A stretch of 64,000 nt of DNA, taken from assembly GCA_001655195.1 (NCBI GenBank), contig LPNY01000139.1, forward strand, positions 420,923 through 484,922, given 5' to 3'. Position 1 is the stretch's first letter; each line of letters starts with the position of its first letter. A program made the position numbers and the translations under genes. Shown in pieces: positions 11,001-19,035 of the stretch. Under the pieces are notes generated by a model. That model searched no databases. It was not told the DNA's origin and saw only the letters and a list, made by a program, of their open reading frames with translations. The DNA is from Arcobacter sp. EP1. Its GTDB lineage: Bacteria > Campylobacterota > Campylobacteria > Campylobacterales > Arcobacteraceae.

Positions 11001-13406
11001 TTACTTTTTTTTACTCTTTTTTCCAAGACTTAAATCACTAAACTCAATTAAACGACTCTCAACAAGATAATTGAGGCTTTTTTTAGGGAACTTATCATTA
11101 CTTCCTCGAACACCTGCTTCAATATCCATTAATAGTTTAACCCCTTCATCCACATGTTTAATAGCATAAACTTTAAACTGCCCTTTTCGTACCGCATCTA
11201 AGACCTCTTCTTTTAGCATGAGGTTTTTAATATTACTATAGGGAATAATCACATTGGCTTTAAAGTTTCTATCTTTTAGTTTACACACATCAAAGAAACC
11301 TTCAATCTTTTCATTGACGCCACCAATTGCTTGAACTTCTCCACTTTGATTAATAGATCCTGTAACTGCAAAATTTTGTTTGATAGGAACATTTGCAATA
11401 GAAGAGAGCAAGATATACAATTCAGCTAAAGAAGCACTATCCCCATCAATGATAGAATAAGATTGTTCAAAAACTAAACTCGCTGTTAAACTCATGGAAA
11501 AATCGTGACTGTAACGTGAAGCTAAAAATGAGGACAAAATCATCACCCCTTTAGAGTGGATTGCACCACTTAGGTCAACTTCTCTTTCGATATCAACGAC
11601 ACCCTCTTTTCCCACGCGCGTTAATGCTGAAATCTTAACAGGAATAGAGAAAATAAAGTTTCCAAAGTCCAATACTGATAGTCCATTGATTTGTCCTACC
11701 TTTTCACCTGTTGTTTCTATTTGAAGGGTACCTTGTTTTATCTCTTCATAAATATCTTCTTTGATGCGTTCACTTCGCTCTTTTCTGTGATTTAGTGCTG
11801 TTAAAATATCTTCATTTTTAATATTTTTAGCTGCCCTATTTTGAGCAATGAAATTTGACTCTTGTAGTAAATCAATAATCGAACTAAAATCTGCGGAGAG
11901 TTTTTGCGAGTTATCCACCAAACGTGAACTAAACTCAATAACACGTCCCAATGCTTTTTTTGTTAAAGGCAAGAGTTCATGTTTTTTTAAAAGTGTTGCA
12001 ATGATTTGAGCATAAAGCAGAATGTTTTCATTATTTCTAATGGTTTCATCTTCAAAGTCAGCTTCTATTTTAAATAGGCGTTTAAAATCATCATCCTCTT
12101 CATAAAGAAGATAATAAATAAAAGGGGAACCTATCAAAACTATTTTTGCATCCAAATCCACACTTTGAGGATTGAGAGTTACACTACTACTTAATCCCAA
12201 AGACTCCTCAACAGTTTCAAGATGAATTTGTTTGCTTTGAAGCATTCGCTTTAAGCCTTCCCATGCGTAGTGCTGAAACAATAACGCTCGAGCATCAATA
12301 ACTAAATATCCACCATTGGCACGATGTAGGGAACCTGCTTTGATTAAGTTGAAATCCGTAGTGAGTGTTCCCATATGAGTAACGTGTTCAATACGTCCAA
12401 AAAGGTTGGAATAGGTAGGATTGTGTTCATAAATAATAGGCGCATTTTTCTGTTTTGCATTGTTTACAAATACGTTTACATTATAGATATCAAAACTAGG
12501 TGCTGTTGATAAACTCTGGCTTAAAAGGTTTTCCATACTATTTGAACTTGGCATTGTCTCTTCTTGAGTAAAGTCCTCAAAGTTTTCAATAACATCTTCT
12601 TGAACCTCATCAAGATACTCACTGACAGCTTCAAAGTTTTCATATTTTTGTTTAATATTGCGCATCATCTTTTCAACAATTGATGTTATAAATTCATTAT
12701 CTATAACTTTCATTTGTTCAATAAAATTACGCCCTACTTCCATCTCTAACTTAGCATTTTCATCCACCAATGTTTTATAAGTAATAATCTTTTTCTCAAT
12801 CTCTTCTCGATCATTTATATTCATGGACTGATACTCTTCATTGGTCAGGGTTTTCCCCTCTTTTAAAGGTGAAATTGTCACTCCTGATGTGGTATCATTG
12901 ATAAAAATATCATCTTTTTTAGCTTCATCTTTAAGAGCATAAAAAATTCGGTCTTGTTCCTCTTTTATTTGAGACTCCAAATCTTTTTTAACACTCAAAT
13001 ACTCTTTTTGTTTAAATGATTGAGGAATCTTTTCTTGAAAGTTTTTTATTAAGTTTTGCATATCTTTTTTAAACTTCACTCCCATTCCAGAAGGAAGTTT
13101 AAGAACAAGAGGTTTTGTGTAATCATTAAAATTATTCACATAACACCAATCTGATAATCCATTCTCTTTTTTGATTTTCTCTTTTAAAAGTTTATCTAGT
13201 AAAGAGTGTCGCCCTGTACCACTTTTTCCCATAACAAAAAGGTTGTAACCTTCATGACGAATTCCCAAAGCAGTATTAATAGCTTTTATAGCTCTATCCT
13301 GTCCTAAAGTTTTGGTTGTTGTTTTAAGTTTGGAAGTGGTTTGAAATTTAAATATTGAAGTATCACATCGTTTATAAAGTTGGTTTATTTTAAGTAGTTT
13401 AATCAT
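11001..13406 (-). CDS. Lon-family ATP-dependent protease
   Basis: 801 residues. A P-loop (GKSGTGRHS) near residue 60 starts an ATPase region interrupted by a long helical insertion (about 120-290). GGYLVIDAR provides the Walker B strand. The C-terminal S16 domain has GDSAS with the catalytic Ser657 and NEKIEG with Lys700. Their spacing of 43 residues equals that of Ser679 and Lys722 in E. coli Lon. The layout matches the AAA_32/Lon_C group (YcbZ/LonH-like), not housekeeping Lon, since the LonN substrate domain is missing. It probably degrades selected cytoplasmic proteins. Confidence 0.85.
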   Translation of the reverse strand: MIKLLKINQLYKRCDTSIFKFQTTSKLKTTTKTLGQDRAIKAINTALGIRHEGYNLFVMGKSGTGRHSLLDKLLKEKIKKENGLSDWCYVNNFNDYTKPLVLKLPSGMGVKFKKDMQNLIKNFQEKIPQSFKQKEYLSVKKDLESQIKEEQDRIFYALKDEAKKDDIFINDTTSGVTISPLKEGKTLTNEEYQSMNINDREEIEKKIITYKTLVDENAKLEMEVGRNFIEQMKVIDNEFITSIVEKMMRNIKQKYENFEAVSEYLDEVQEDVIENFEDFTQEETMPSSNSMENLLSQSLSTAPSFDIYNVNVFVNNAKQKNAPIIYEHNPTYSNLFGRIEHVTHMGTLTTDFNLIKAGSLHRANGGYLVIDARALLFQHYAWEGLKRMLQSKQIHLETVEESLGLSSSVTLNPQSVDLDAKIVLIGSPFIYYLLYEEDDDFKRLFKIEADFEDETIRNNENILLYAQIIATLLKKHELLPLTKKALGRVIEFSSRLVDNSQKLSADFSSIIDLLQESNFIAQNRAAKNIKNEDILTALNHRKERSERIKEDIYEEIKQGTLQIETTGEKVGQINGLSVLDFGNFIFSIPVKISALTRVGKEGVVDIEREVDLSGAIHSKGVMILSSFLASRYSHDFSMSLTASLVFEQSYSIIDGDSASLAELYILLSSIANVPIKQNFAVTGSINQSGEVQAIGGVNEKIEGFFDVCKLKDRNFKANVIIPYSNIKNLMLKEEVLDAVRKGQFKVYAIKHVDEGVKLLMDIEAGVRGSNDKFPKKSLNYLVESRLIEFSDLSLGKKSKKK

Positions 13407-13592
13407 AACAAGCTCCTTATTATTGGGCCAATATTTTCAACTTTTCTTCGGAATTTACTGATTATAACACTATTTCCTTCAATAAATATTTATTTACTTT
13501 AGCTACGTTAATAAATTAATATTAGCCTGCATACTAAATAAAGGCTTCACAAAAAGGAAGTACAATTGATACAGAATTTAAAAGGATTTAAA

Positions 13593-14180
13593 ATGAACAA
13601 ATACACTGTTATTGCGTTGATGGGTATTCTTCTTTTAGTTGTTACTTCTTTTAGTAGTAATCAAGAACCGATAAAATCAAAATATGAAAATGAAAATACA
13701 AAAAATGCCTACTTTGCAGGAGGATGTTTTTGGGGTGTGGAATATCACTTTGAAAAAAAAGATGGTGTATTAGATGTACTTAGTGGATACATGGGTGGAC
13801 ATGTCAAAAACCCAAACTACTATGAAGTTATCAAAGGCAAAACTGGCCACTTAGAAAGCGTTAAAGTTGTTTATGACCCTAATAAAATCTCTTATGAAGA
13901 GTTAACCAAACTCTTTTTTGAAATCCATGATATGGAACAAACCGATGGTCAAGGTCCCGATATAGGGAGCCAATACTTATCGGCTATTTTTTACAATGAT
14001 GATGCTGAGAAAAAAACAGTACAAAATGTGATTGATATTTTAACAACCAAAGGATACAAAGTAGCAACATCACTGTACGAAGCCAATGAGTTTTTCACTG
14101 CAGAAGGTTACCACCAAAACTATTATGCCCGTACAGGAAAACTTCCTTATTGTCATACTTATAAAAAGATATTTGACTAA
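13593..14180 (+). CDS. msrA: Peptide methionine (S)-S-oxide reductase with membrane anchor
   Basis: 195 residues from ATG 13593, which has AAAGGA six bases upstream; an earlier TTG would add nine residues. The catalytic motif GGCFW places the reactive cysteine at residue 45, and the conserved GYMGG, GHLESVKVVYDP and later GSQYLSAI and YHQNYY motifs are present. MsrA reduces the S form of methionine sulfoxide. Residues 1-22 form a signal anchor (TVIALMGILLLVVTSF), so this copy should act on envelope proteins. Its stop overlaps that of the convergent SRAP gene by four bases. Confidence 0.92.
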   Translation: MNKYTVIALMGILLLVVTSFSSNQEPIKSKYENENTKNAYFAGGCFWGVEYHFEKKDGVLDVLSGYMGGHVKNPNYYEVIKGKTGHLESVKVVYDPNKISYEELTKLFFEIHDMEQTDGQGPDIGSQYLSAIFYNDDAEKKTVQNVIDILTTKGYKVATSLYEANEFFTAEGYHQNYYARTGKLPYCHTYKKIFD

Positions 14181-14875
14181 AAAAGAGCCAACTGTCCCTT
14201 AAACTCCTTTTTTAAAGGCTCTATGGCCTCTTTTTGGCTATATAGTACTTTGTTAACTTCACTAGTAACTTCATAGAGTTCTAACTTTTCACTTGCATAG
14301 ATTTTCATCAAACTATTAAGCTCTTTTAAATCACTACTCTCTAGCCATGTTTTAAAATCTTTTTCTTCTAAAACAACAGGCATACGATGGTGAATTTTCC
14401 CTAGTTTTTCATTTGCATCACATGTTATTAATGCAACCGTAACAATAGTCATATTAAGTTCAGTGTCAAACCACTCATCCCAAAGCCCAGCAACTGCTAA
14501 AAATTTGCTCTCTTTATTGTGCACAAAATAAGGCCTTTTGATTTTTGTTTTATCATGGGTTTCCACTTCCCATTCATAAAAACCATTTAAAGGAATAATA
14601 CAACGCTGATATTTAAAGGCATCACGAAAGGTCTGTTTTTCAAAAACGGTTTCACTTCGGGCATTAATATTCATGGATTTTTTATCTTTTGCCCACGATG
14701 GCAAAAATCCAAAGTGCGTATACAAATAGTTACCGTTATTTAATAGCGCAGGAATTGGCAGTGTTGGAGGAATATTATACGAAAGAGTAAGTGTTCCAAT
14801 CATATCATTTTGTATTAAGTTACGGGCTTGTTCTTTAAATGCTATATCATCATATATCGCTAAACGCCCTGGCAT
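14177..14875 (-). CDS. SRAP (YedK/HMCES-like) protein with Pro2 in place of Cys2
   Basis: 232 residues. The SRAP fold is clear: FGFLPSWAKD, NARSET (71-76), GFYEW with Glu101, and IHHRMPVVL with His162/163. SRAP proteins attach covalently to abasic sites in single-stranded DNA through the N-terminal Cys2. Here the protein begins MPGRL in place of the usual MCGR, while the other active-site residues remain. The start is certain: an in-frame TAG lies six bases before the ATG. Methionine removal would expose an N-terminal proline, the same kind of nucleophile used by Fpg/MutM. It lies six bases downstream of a sensor kinase gene on the same strand. Confidence 0.88.
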   Translation of the reverse strand: MPGRLAIYDDIAFKEQARNLIQNDMIGTLTLSYNIPPTLPIPALLNNGNYLYTHFGFLPSWAKDKKSMNINARSETVFEKQTFRDAFKYQRCIIPLNGFYEWEVETHDKTKIKRPYFVHNKESKFLAVAGLWDEWFDTELNMTIVTVALITCDANEKLGKIHHRMPVVLEEKDFKTWLESSDLKELNSLMKIYASEKLELYEVTSEVNKVLYSQKEAIEPLKKEFKGQLALF

Positions 14876-14881
14876 ATAGTA

Positions 14882-16606
14882 CTACCCTAAAGTTCGAGGT
14901 AAAGAGATAGTAAATTGTGCGCCACTCAAAGTTTGGTTTTTATAAGAATAGGTCAAGTTTTCCACATAAATGCTTCCATTCATACTCTCGGTGATTATTT
15001 TGTAAGTCATATACAACCCCAATCCAGTACCCTTGGATGTGTGTTTTGTTGTAAAATAAGGTTCAAATATTTTATCAATAACATTTTTAGGAATACCTTG
15101 TGCATTGTCACGTATCAATAAACTAACATCATTTTCATTTTGCTGTAATTCAATAAAAATATACTTCTTTTCAACATCATTTGAAACTAACGCATCTTTT
15201 GCATTATTTATAATATTAATAAACGCTTGGGTTAACTCGTTGGGATAACTATTAACTTGCGCCGTATTGTCATCTTTAAAAATAACATCTATGGAGTTAG
15301 CTTTAAGATTACCCTTTAAAAGTTCCAAGTTTTTGTTAACATTTTCGCGAAGACAAAAGTTTATTTTTTCTTTATCCCCTTTGAGAAAGTTTCTAAAATC
15401 ATCTATAGTTTGAGAAAGATACTTTGTACTTTTTACCATACTATTTAGGTTTTCATTAAGGGCATCATCTTTTAAAATACCTAACTCGTTTTGTATTTTA
15501 ATACTACTAGCACCCGTTGAGATAACACTTAAAGGTTGTCTCCATTGGTGGGCAATATTTGCTATCATTTCACCCATTTCAGCTAACTTGGATTGTTCCA
15601 TAATCATGGCATCTTTTTTCATGATATTTTTATATAAATGATTAATCTTTTTTAAAAAATAATTCAACCCAAAGTTCAACACTAAAAACATCATAAGAAT
15701 AATAAATAACACCACATAAATATTTTGGATTAAAAGCTCTTTTAATTTGATGTTATAAGAAGTCAAATCATAAGATATGAGTATTTTTGCCGCCACCTCA
15801 TCCCTATGATTAAACAGATTCACATCAGTATCAATCAGGTATTCCGTACCATTAAAGTTGATATTCACAAACTTTTTTGTTAAATCAATCTCATCGATTT
15901 TTTTTTCAAAATGTTTATTTCCTCGGGCTAAATAGTATTGGTTGATACCTTTAAGATTTTGTTTTTCTAAAAAAATATCTGAATCTTGTTTTCGTATTAA
16001 AAGAGCAGACTCTACTTTTGAGATTTTATTAATTTTTGACACAATATATTCAGGTTCGATTCCAACTTCAACAACACCTAAAAAGTTATTATTGTAAAAA
16101 ATTGGGGTAACAACTCGGTATGTCATTTTGAGTTTGCCTACTTCAAAACCATACTGTTTTTCTTTTGTTTCAAGTGTATCAAGTATGATTTTTCTTTTTT
16201 TATTTAAAGCATCACCAAACATAGATGGCTTATGGACACGTAAAAAGGTACTACCATCAAATAATCTAAAGGTCATAATTTTTAAGTATCGATTTTTGCT
16301 CGCCATTCGTTGGTAGTTTTTTTCAACAAGACCATAAAGACGTTCTCTATCGCGGTCATAAAAGGCTTTTTGTACAGCTTTATTAGATAATATAAACTCC
16401 GTTTTTTCACTAATATCATATTCTAACTCTTCTAAGAAAAAGTCAAAACTTTTATGAACATAGTTATCTTTGATATTGATATCACTGCTAATATCATTTT
16501 TAATAAGTTGGTATTGATAAAAAGTTATGATGATTCCAGAAATTCCTAGAATCAATAACATCATCACCAATATAGTATTTTTAATCTTTTTATCATTCAA
16601 TATCAT
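14882..16606 (-). CDS. Orphan sensor histidine kinase with extracytoplasmic sensor domain
   Basis: About 574 residues from the ATG at 16606 (a GTG at 16612 is also possible). A transmembrane helix (about 11-30), a Cache-like periplasmic region (about 35-285) and a second helix (about 296-318) lead to a kinase core. Its phosphoacceptor is in IANIAHQWRQPLS, and the ATPase has INNAKDAL (N box), DNAQGIP (G1), and KGTGLGLYM (G2). The HisKA type is the one common in Campylobacterota. No response regulator gene is adjacent; the SRAP gene is the next gene downstream. Confidence 0.85.
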   Translation of the reverse strand: MILNDKKIKNTILVMMLLILGISGIIITFYQYQLIKNDISSDINIKDNYVHKSFDFFLEELEYDISEKTEFILSNKAVQKAFYDRDRERLYGLVEKNYQRMASKNRYLKIMTFRLFDGSTFLRVHKPSMFGDALNKKRKIILDTLETKEKQYGFEVGKLKMTYRVVTPIFYNNNFLGVVEVGIEPEYIVSKINKISKVESALLIRKQDSDIFLEKQNLKGINQYYLARGNKHFEKKIDEIDLTKKFVNINFNGTEYLIDTDVNLFNHRDEVAAKILISYDLTSYNIKLKELLIQNIYVVLFIILMMFLVLNFGLNYFLKKINHLYKNIMKKDAMIMEQSKLAEMGEMIANIAHQWRQPLSVISTGASSIKIQNELGILKDDALNENLNSMVKSTKYLSQTIDDFRNFLKGDKEKINFCLRENVNKNLELLKGNLKANSIDVIFKDDNTAQVNSYPNELTQAFINIINNAKDALVSNDVEKKYIFIELQQNENDVSLLIRDNAQGIPKNVIDKIFEPYFTTKHTSKGTGLGLYMTYKIITESMNGSIYVENLTYSYKNQTLSGAQFTISLPRTLG

Positions 16607-16774
16607 CGTCACATCTCTTTCGAAAACAATTATATAATTATTTTACTTTCATAAGCGAATCTTATAATTTTATATTTTGTTAGTTGAAGTATCGAAATTA
16701 ATTGGATAAGAATTTTTTTAGTTACTTTATATTTGTGAGTTTATTAGTTAGAGTTTAATTAGATATTTTGGCTT

Positions 16775-17187: not shown

Positions 17188-19035
17188 ATGAATTTAGAAG
17201 AAAAACTCAAAGAACTTCCTAACAGTGCTGGTGTCTATCAATACTTTGATAAAGACGGTCGCCTACTATATATTGGTAAAGCAAAAGTTCTAAAAAACCG
17301 TGTTAAATCTTACTTTAAATTTACACCCCATTTAGCCCCTGCAGATAAACTAGGTGCACGTATTTATAAGATGATATCTGAGGTTACTAGTTTGGAGTGG
17401 ATTGTTGCTCCCAACGAACATGATGCTTTGATTTTAGAAAATTCATTAATCAAACAGTTAAAACCTAAATACAATATTTTATTACGAGATGATAAAACTT
17501 ATCCCTATATTTATATTGATAATAGCGAAGATTTTCCGCGCCTTGAAATCACACGACGAATTCAAAAAAGCAAACAAATAAAATATTTTGGTCCCTACTC
17601 TACAGGGGCACGAGATATGTTGGACTCTATTTATGAGATTGTTCCATTGGTGCAAAAAAAGGCCTGTATTAAAGGCAATGAAGCCTGTCTTTTTTATCAG
17701 ATAAAAAAGTGCCATGCTCCTTGTGAAGGTAAAATTTCAAAAGAAGACTACAGTAAACTCATTGATGAAGCCTTAGAGTATATTTATAATAAGAGTAAAC
17801 TCATCGCTAAACTGCAAGGTAAAATGGAAGAGTACTCAACAGAGTTTCGTTTTGAAGAGGCTATGAAACTTCGTGACCGTATTAAAACTATTGAAAAATC
17901 TGAAATCAAATCGGGTATGGATTTAGCAACCAATGAGAACCTTGATTTGTTTGCTATAAAAACTAACAATAAAAAAGCTGTTATAGTACGACTGTTTATT
18001 CGAGATGGAAAACTAGCGTCTAGTTCTCATAACTTTATCAAACTGGATTTTGTTGATGAAACTATGCAAATAGAGTTAGAAGAAGCCTATGAGAGAGCTA
18101 TCGTTAACTACTATGATAATGAAATTCCAGTGCTTCCAAAAGAAGTACTAGTTGCCAATGATTTAGAAGAAAAAACTGAATTAGAAAACTTTTTACAAGA
18201 ACGTTTTGATAAAAAGATTCCCATCAAATTTCCAAAAAGCGGAAAGAAGAAAGACCTACTCTCTATTGCACTGAATAACTGTGATGAACTGCTCCGTCTT
18301 GATAGTTCTCAAATGCAAAGTAGTGTTTATGAAGAACTTAAATATCTATTCAACCTTCAAACAACACCTCAAAGAGTTGAGAGTTTTGATAACTCACATA
18401 TGATGGGACAAGCAACTGTTGGAGCAATGGTTGTATGGGAAGAAAAGTTTGTTAAAACTGATTTTAGACACTACAATTTAGAATCAAAAGATGAATACAG
18501 TCAAATGAACGAAATGCTCTTACGCCGAGTAGAGAGTTTTGAAAAGAATCCCGCACCTGACCTTTGGATTATTGATGGAGGAGAGACTCTACTAAAACTT
18601 GCATATGATATTGTCGACTCTGTGGGAGTACGACTTGATATCGTCGCCATTGCTAAAGAGAAACTAGATGCAAAAGCTCATAGGGCAAAAGGTGCAGCTA
18701 AAGATGTACTACATTATAAAAGTGAAGGCATTTATAAAAGTCTACGATTAGAGACCAGTGATAAACGGCTTCAGTTTGTACAACGTCAAAGAGACGAAGC
18801 CCACCGTTTTGTTATCAACTTTCATAAAAAACAAAAACGAAAAGAGGATAAACAAATTTCACTGCTTCAACTCAATGGTATCGGGGAAGTTAAGGTAAAA
18901 AAACTACTCAATTATTTCGGGACCTTCGAAAATATCAAAGGTGCATCCATTGAAGAATTAAAAGTGGTTTTAAATGAAAAAGATAGTATCCTTATCTTCA
19001 ATCATTTTAAAACGCAAAACGTAGCAAATACGTAG
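17188..19035 (+). CDS. uvrC: Excinuclease ABC subunit C
   Basis: 615 residues, the normal length. The N-terminal GIY-YIG nuclease domain opens with GVYQYFDKDGRLLYIGKAK (residues 17-35). Central cysteines lie in ACIKGNEACLFYQIKKCHAPC, a UvrB-binding UVR motif lies near FRFEEAMKLRDRI, and the RNase H-like endonuclease region contains SFDNSHMMGQ and WIIDGG. The C-terminus has tandem HhH motifs (LLQLNGIGEVKVKKLLNYFG). UvrC makes both incisions in nucleotide excision repair with UvrA and UvrB. The start codon lies just after the inverted-repeat element. Confidence 0.97.
   Translation: MNLEEKLKELPNSAGVYQYFDKDGRLLYIGKAKVLKNRVKSYFKFTPHLAPADKLGARIYKMISEVTSLEWIVAPNEHDALILENSLIKQLKPKYNILLRDDKTYPYIYIDNSEDFPRLEITRRIQKSKQIKYFGPYSTGARDMLDSIYEIVPLVQKKACIKGNEACLFYQIKKCHAPCEGKISKEDYSKLIDEALEYIYNKSKLIAKLQGKMEEYSTEFRFEEAMKLRDRIKTIEKSEIKSGMDLATNENLDLFAIKTNNKKAVIVRLFIRDGKLASSSHNFIKLDFVDETMQIELEEAYERAIVNYYDNEIPVLPKEVLVANDLEEKTELENFLQERFDKKIPIKFPKSGKKKDLLSIALNNCDELLRLDSSQMQSSVYEELKYLFNLQTTPQRVESFDNSHMMGQATVGAMVVWEEKFVKTDFRHYNLESKDEYSQMNEMLLRRVESFEKNPAPDLWIIDGGETLLKLAYDIVDSVGVRLDIVAIAKEKLDAKAHRAKGAAKDVLHYKSEGIYKSLRLETSDKRLQFVQRQRDEAHRFVINFHKKQKRKEDKQISLLQLNGIGEVKVKKLLNYFGTFENIKGASIEELKVVLNEKDSILIFNHFKTQNVANT

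Follow-up and report, generated by a model that had tools for sequence, protein, structure and literature searches.

A SRAP lineage of Campylobacterota with proline in place of the catalytic cysteine: a candidate Schiff-base enzyme of abasic DNA

The SRAP family is known for its suicide crosslink to abasic DNA, and its second residue has been called "absolutely conserved" (PMC3765255) and, in work on YedK, "invariant" (PMC9436759). The 64,000-nucleotide stretch of the Arcobacter sp. EP1 genome analyzed here (the window) nevertheless contains a SRAP gene with a proline codon at that position (Table 1), and the lineage to which it belongs raises the question of whether a SRAP protein can be a catalytic abasic-site (AP) lyase. 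A preliminary description of this DNA had suggested an AP lyase-like protein or a reversible sensor. No report of a proline-variant SRAP, or of SRAP in Arcobacter, was found in the open-access literature.

Table 1. Features at the SRAP locus (positions in the window)
Feature	Position	Strand	Evidence or remark
msrA	13566..14180	+	convergent, overlaps SRAP stop by 4 bases
Pro2 SRAP gene, 232 aa	14177..14875	-	ORF; PF02586 match; dN/dS of relatives
SRAP stop codon TAG	14177-14179	-	
C-terminal QLALF, fits beta-clamp-binding consensus QxxLF	14180..14194	-	alignment; low-pLDDT tail
His162 codon (YedK His160)	14390..14392	-	alignments, 36/36 Pro2 rows; L029, without the segment, is outside the 36
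Glu101 codon (YedK Glu105, acid-base residue)	14573..14575	-	alignments, 36/36
Asn71 codon (YedK Asn75)	14663..14665	-	alignments, 36/36
Pro2 codon CCA	14870-14872	-	Cys codon there in other SRAPs
ATG start	14873-14875	-	
Sensor histidine kinase gene	14882..16612	-	ends 6 bases upstream of SRAP start
uvrC	17188..19035	+	divergent, upstream of SRAP

The substitution stands as first described: the translated protein begins MPGRLAIYDD, and an in-frame TAG two codons 5' of the ATG fixes the start. Residues 1-210 match PF02586 (E 3.3e-57, 193.9 bits, cut-off 27.1), the sole Pfam family found at E <= 0.001; PF01149 (Fpg/Nei) gave no match at that threshold. All 11 distinct sequences retrieved by phmmer from the PDB were SRAP-type (BT_1218, HMCES, YedK, and phage-related Bordetella proteins). 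The gene is the single SRAP match in its genome (3.0 Mb in 229 contigs), so that a second, MCGR-type SRAP, which the preliminary description had considered as a possible active copy, is not found there. We file the protein in the SRAP superfamily by descent and fold and, because the defining residue Cys2 is missing, outside the Cys2 thiazolidine-forming class.

The AlphaFold2 model, based on 53 aligned sequences, has a mean pLDDT of 95.7, with a drop to 52 at its C-terminal end, and all 21 PDB matches found by Foldseek at E <= 0.001 were SRAP structures. In VIA-align, residues 2-223 of the model aligned with residues 2-224 of the Schiff-base structure of YedK C2A (8d2m; Z 25.8, rmsd 2.3, 210 residues), and the alignment with HMCES (Z 26.9) also ran from residue 2 onward; Pro2 therefore most likely sits at the nucleophile position in the predicted fold. 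No Fpg/Nei structure was listed among the VIA-align rows, a list that is no test of exclusion. The window protein shares with YedK and the SRAP domain of human HMCES the fold (Z 25-27), the Asn/Glu/His triad, the DNA-site arginines and PF02586 homology, but differs from both in having Pro as residue 2, which would leave it without a thiazolidine.

Whether Pro2 is a conserved clade trait, a point raised by the preliminary description, is answered by the homologs in the affirmative. SRAP was found in 30 of 104 Arcobacteraceae genomes, spread over seven of 20 genera, and Pro2 in all 30, the proteins starting [M/V/L]PGR; the Pro2 proteins that could be used, 36 in all, group in a single clade (see below). 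One of the 30 genes (in genome G074) is split across two contig ends (L030 and L450), and its N-terminal piece, L450, which reads MPGRLS, supplies the 30th Pro2; L028 is a duplicate of L027. SRAP occurred in 22 of 398 genomes of the order Campylobacterales and in 16 of 397 genomes of a phylum sample. Confinement of Pro2 to the Arcobacteraceae is ruled out by nine genes of a second family (f7), which is home to the nearest Cys2 relative and has SRAP in 16 of 228 genomes. Among the 15 readable f7 N-termini, nine have Pro2, again as [M/V/L]PGR (L466-L474; genera g27, g102, and g104), and six have Cys2, five as MCGR (L037, L461, L462, L463, and L465) and one as MCAR (L464). This second family with Pro2 and the C-terminal clamp-binding-like motif treated below are new relative to the preliminary description. 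The 16th f7 SRAP (G904; L475/L476) is a decayed pseudogene with several stops, and its tail ends in PRQGTLF. Where the start could be read, the remaining Campylobacterales SRAPs all have Cys2 (L035, L036, L435, L436, and, both broken, L452 and L454); L454 (G238) is a short ORF in which VCGRVDIHD runs straight into RMPVIL, and looks like an internal deletion in a Cys2 SRAP. A contig-end C-terminal SRAP fragment of family f9 (L438/L451, G690) ends in PRQGTLF like the f7 Pro2 proteins; the contig stops short of its N-terminus, and a third family may thus carry Pro2.

In an IQ-TREE phylogeny of 63 proteins, all 36 Pro2 rows fell in one clade (100/99) that adjoins the f7 Cys2 group (joint clade, 100/95); the clade was also recovered, with 27 Pro2 rows (100/98), in a previous tree of 83 rows. 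The residue-2 column, one of more than 230, was kept for tree building; L464 (MCAR) was left out of the 63-protein tree, and L027 was placed with f7 at 82/52 only. A single origin of Pro2 is the simplest reading of these trees, and Pro2 may since have been inherited vertically or exchanged between the two families.

The preliminary description had also held that the other active-site elements are kept, and we can extend this to the whole clade. NARSET (N71), GFYEW (E101), and IHHRMP (H162) are all found in the window protein, and the Asn, Glu, and His residues are present in each of the 36 Pro2 rows. In an alignment with Cys2 proteins, YedK among them, the catalytic His is the first H of I-H-x-R. 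The invariant residues in these rows are G3, R4, N34, P37, N71, A72, R73, and E75, and likewise R91, E101, W102, H162, R164, P166, and V203. L029 (G017), a Pro2 SRAP of one Arcobacteraceae genus that has lost the HHRMP segment after residue 158 in-frame and looks eroded, was kept out of the 36 rows, the trees, and the dN/dS analysis.

The C-terminal pentapeptide of the window protein lies in an accessible tail (the low-confidence last residues of the AlphaFold2 model) and fits QL[S/D]LF or QxxLF, given as the common clamp-binding motif in a study in which Bacillus subtilis PolC has a C-terminal QLSLF (PMC12309361). A QxxLF end was found in 32 of 37 Pro2 proteins (23 of 28 distinct Arcobacteraceae proteins and nine of nine from f7) against none of 223 Cys2 proteins, a Cys2 set made up mostly of viral and E. 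coli-like sequences, without L464. The narrower Q[LQ]xLF end was present in 22 of 28 Pro2 proteins, against none of 211 Cys2 proteins and none of 195 non-SRAP neighboring ORFs. Because the Pro2 rows are one clade, this association of Pro2 with QxxLF is effectively one event rather than several independent ones. LF tails without Gln occur in seven of the 223 Cys2 proteins, and four f7 Cys2 proteins (L461-L464) end in TLF with Gln not at the right place (L464 has the tail GTLF), so some of the tail may predate Pro2. YedK, unlike the window protein, is without a C-terminal QxxLF. HMCES has a PCNA-binding motif. Unlike that of known clamp binders, the motif described here is carried by a SRAP protein; it suggests that the Pro2 SRAP probably associates with the clamp, and the tail offers a simple handle on fork targeting in bacteria.

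Two precedents bear on the chemistry. Glu105 and His160 assist the Cys2 amine of YedK in forming a Schiff base, and a thiazolidine is then closed by the thiol; the C2A mutant gives no stable crosslink, was captured in a crystal structure as a borohydride-trapped Schiff base, and cleaves DNA as an AP lyase (PMC9436759). The Pro2 proteins resemble this mutant in having a SRAP active site without a thiol and, as predicted here, a free N-terminal amine, but the mutant is an engineered primary amine, whereas the Pro2 proteins are natural and present a secondary amine. In mycobacterial Nei2, removal of Met before Pro is presumed, the Pro2 amine is needed for AP lyase activity, P2A and P2C are both lyase-dead, and the enzyme acts on single-stranded DNA, a likeness to what we propose for the Pro2 SRAP (PMC11323726). 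The window protein would be like such Fpg/Nei lyases in having, once Met is removed, an N-terminal Pro at an AP-site active site, and is unlike them in its SRAP fold and lack of a PF01149 match, there being no such gene in 101 Arcobacteraceae genomes. In general, an initiator Met followed by Pro is cleaved off, and the window genome has a gene for a type I methionine aminopeptidase (309.6 bits against a cut-off of 171.35).

In the mechanism that we propose, removal of Met1 would free the N-terminal Pro2, the secondary amine of which would attack an abasic site in single-stranded DNA at its ring-opened aldehyde, and Glu101 and His162, judging from residue identity, would serve as their counterparts in YedK do, in opening the sugar and in proton handling. 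Because the thiol is absent, the iminium could not close to a thiazolidine, which would leave it two outcomes: hydrolysis, amounting to reversible holding, or elimination of the 3' phosphate, which is AP lyase activity; the chemical exclusion of a stable thiazolidine crosslink presupposes that the nucleophile is residue 2. The QxxLF tail would probably recruit the protein to replication forks through the beta clamp. Since a YedK-type active site is combined with a Nei2-type nucleophile, a Schiff-base enzyme is to be expected, and with moderate confidence we take the Pro2 SRAP to be a clamp-associated Schiff-base enzyme that acts on AP sites in single-stranded DNA with an N-terminal Pro nucleophile, probably as a lyase. 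We think that the nucleophile is convergent with that of Fpg/Nei, and that the protein would act like an N-terminal-proline AP lyase without Fpg/Nei membership. A bolder version, in which one Cys-to-Pro change turned a suicide crosslinker into a turnover enzyme, that is, a natural clamp-tethered, single-strand-specific and Fpg/Nei-convergent AP lyase in a phylum of which 200 genomes yielded no Fpg/Nei gene, is tentative, and we place it somewhat short of probable. The interpretation offered in the preliminary description remains plausible and well motivated, and is partly supported. Pro2 predicts cutting or reversible holding of the damaged site instead of permanent attachment to it, and a lineage in which Pro2 is fixed and the rest kept is a natural experiment on whether SRAP shielding is separable from the stable crosslink. 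Since the lyase activity of Nei2 was neither sufficient nor necessary for its crosslink-repair role in cells (PMC11323726), lyase chemistry alone would not reveal the biological role of the Pro2 SRAP.

The alternative that survives best is a reversible shield, in which the Pro2 iminium hydrolyzes without elimination and the AP site is protected transiently, with no long-lived crosslink needing removal. Cutting of a single-stranded template at a fork would be harmful, which makes this a serious rival, and the clamp-like tail fits a fork role. The YedK study describes AP-site shielding by SRAP proteins and crosslinks that are already slowly reversible, and it gives fitted rate constants for C2A, both Glu105-dependent, of 1.7 for the Schiff base and 0.05 for the lyase step (PMC9436759); with elimination so much slower than Schiff-base formation, cleavage by the Pro2 SRAP may be incidental. 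Weighing on the other side, cleavage of DNA is seen when YedK lacks the Cys2 thiol (PMC9436759), and in Nei/Fpg elimination is driven by proline amines (PMC11323726). We consider a pure shield unlikely, if well worth keeping in view, and think a net lyase appreciably more likely of the two.

Less credible is a protein in which proline blocks the chemistry and which acts on AP sites or single-stranded DNA by binding alone. The DNA-site residues examined are all kept, and the contact that the active-site Asn makes with the residue-2 backbone in YedK (PMC9436759) might be disturbed by the proline ring. Against such a binder, Glu101 and His162, which have known roles in ring opening and Schiff-base formation, are invariant in 36 of 36 rows, and residue 2 is Pro throughout instead of drifting. 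That it is always Pro, and never Ala, Gly, or Ser, in this lineage suggests that a secondary amine is required and not mere loss of the thiol. Simple binding seems to us improbable.

Erosion, with loss of Cys2 equated to loss of function, is strongly disfavored. L029, without its His segment, and the decayed f7 gene of G904 are what this view would predict, but the same residue is found in 30 of 30 Arcobacteraceae and nine of 15 f7 genes, and the other catalytic residues are invariant. Moreover, pairwise dN/dS among the 27 distinct intact Arcobacteraceae genes has a median of 0.20 and a maximum of 0.59 (306 of 351 pairs with dS < 1.5), with values of 0.07-0.15 in the eight closest pairs, ratios by which these genes are under strong purifying selection. 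A sequencing error at codon 2 or a wrong start codon is refuted by the recurrence of Pro2 in all 30 SRAP-bearing genomes of the family, where the 29 readable loci encode it by CCT (16), CCA (10), or CCC (3) after ATG (23), TTG (4), or GTG (2) starts at the same position, and where 12 of these loci have a stop 0-3 codons ahead of the start. The observation is confirmed, and in a stronger form than the preliminary description knew: the proline codon is no error, and the gene is not a copy in decay.

How rare is the substitution elsewhere? Of 244 distinct SRAP proteins, in a set assembled without the f7 Pro2 genes, 215 have Cys at residue 2, 28 have Pro, and one has Arg. No Pro2 SRAP was found in IMG/VR with patterns for all four first letters of codon 2, which require ATG and limited spacing and so miss GTG or TTG starts and unusual spacings. 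Pro2 in mobile elements was rejected as a candidate on the pattern with first letter C, for which two of 27 stretches held a SRAP, both Arg2. First letter G gave 57 stretches with one SRAP, whose own start reads MCGR; first letter A gave 53 with none; and first letter T gave at least 120, of which the first 80 loci included 79 with SRAP, the readable ones all Cys. The two Arg2 genes (MRGRLS), one open (L181:512-1198, +) and one interrupted by a stop (L178), represent another loss of Cys2. Viral sequences scanned with L037, a Cys2 sister, gave no match. Cellular SRAPs beyond Campylobacterota came from one phylum, that of G456 (seven of 145 genomes, readable N-termini all Cys), and from E. coli K-12, and were joined by eight plasmid or phage records, seven with MCGR and one (L448) with MCYHIS, i.e., Cys2; given so narrow a sampling, Pro2 may occur in other phyla.

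Co-transcription of the histidine kinase gene with SRAP is possible in the window genome. The kinase gene is not beside SRAP in most relatives, and no response regulator for it was recognized among the scanned neighbors. Beyond it in the window lie uvrC and alanine racemase. The uvrC neighborhood was dismissed as a functional link and is probably inherited gene order: uvrC lay upstream and divergent at 16 of the 20 loci examined in Arcobacteraceae (from 20 of the family's 30 SRAP-bearing genomes, 19 plus L031) and at none of 16 f7 loci (15 stretches plus L433, some of them short contigs). Pro2 as compensation for missing Fpg/Nei was likewise set aside, because PF01149 was found in none of 101 Arcobacteraceae genomes and none of 200 phylum genomes, an absence that is phylum-wide and not tied to Pro2. 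Four HhH-GPD matches in the window genome indicate that other glycosylases exist there, possibly with an Nth-type lyase among them. On the minus strand at 11001-13406, the window also encodes a LonB-like AAA protease (TIGR00764, 158.7 bits, below the cut-off of 516.6).
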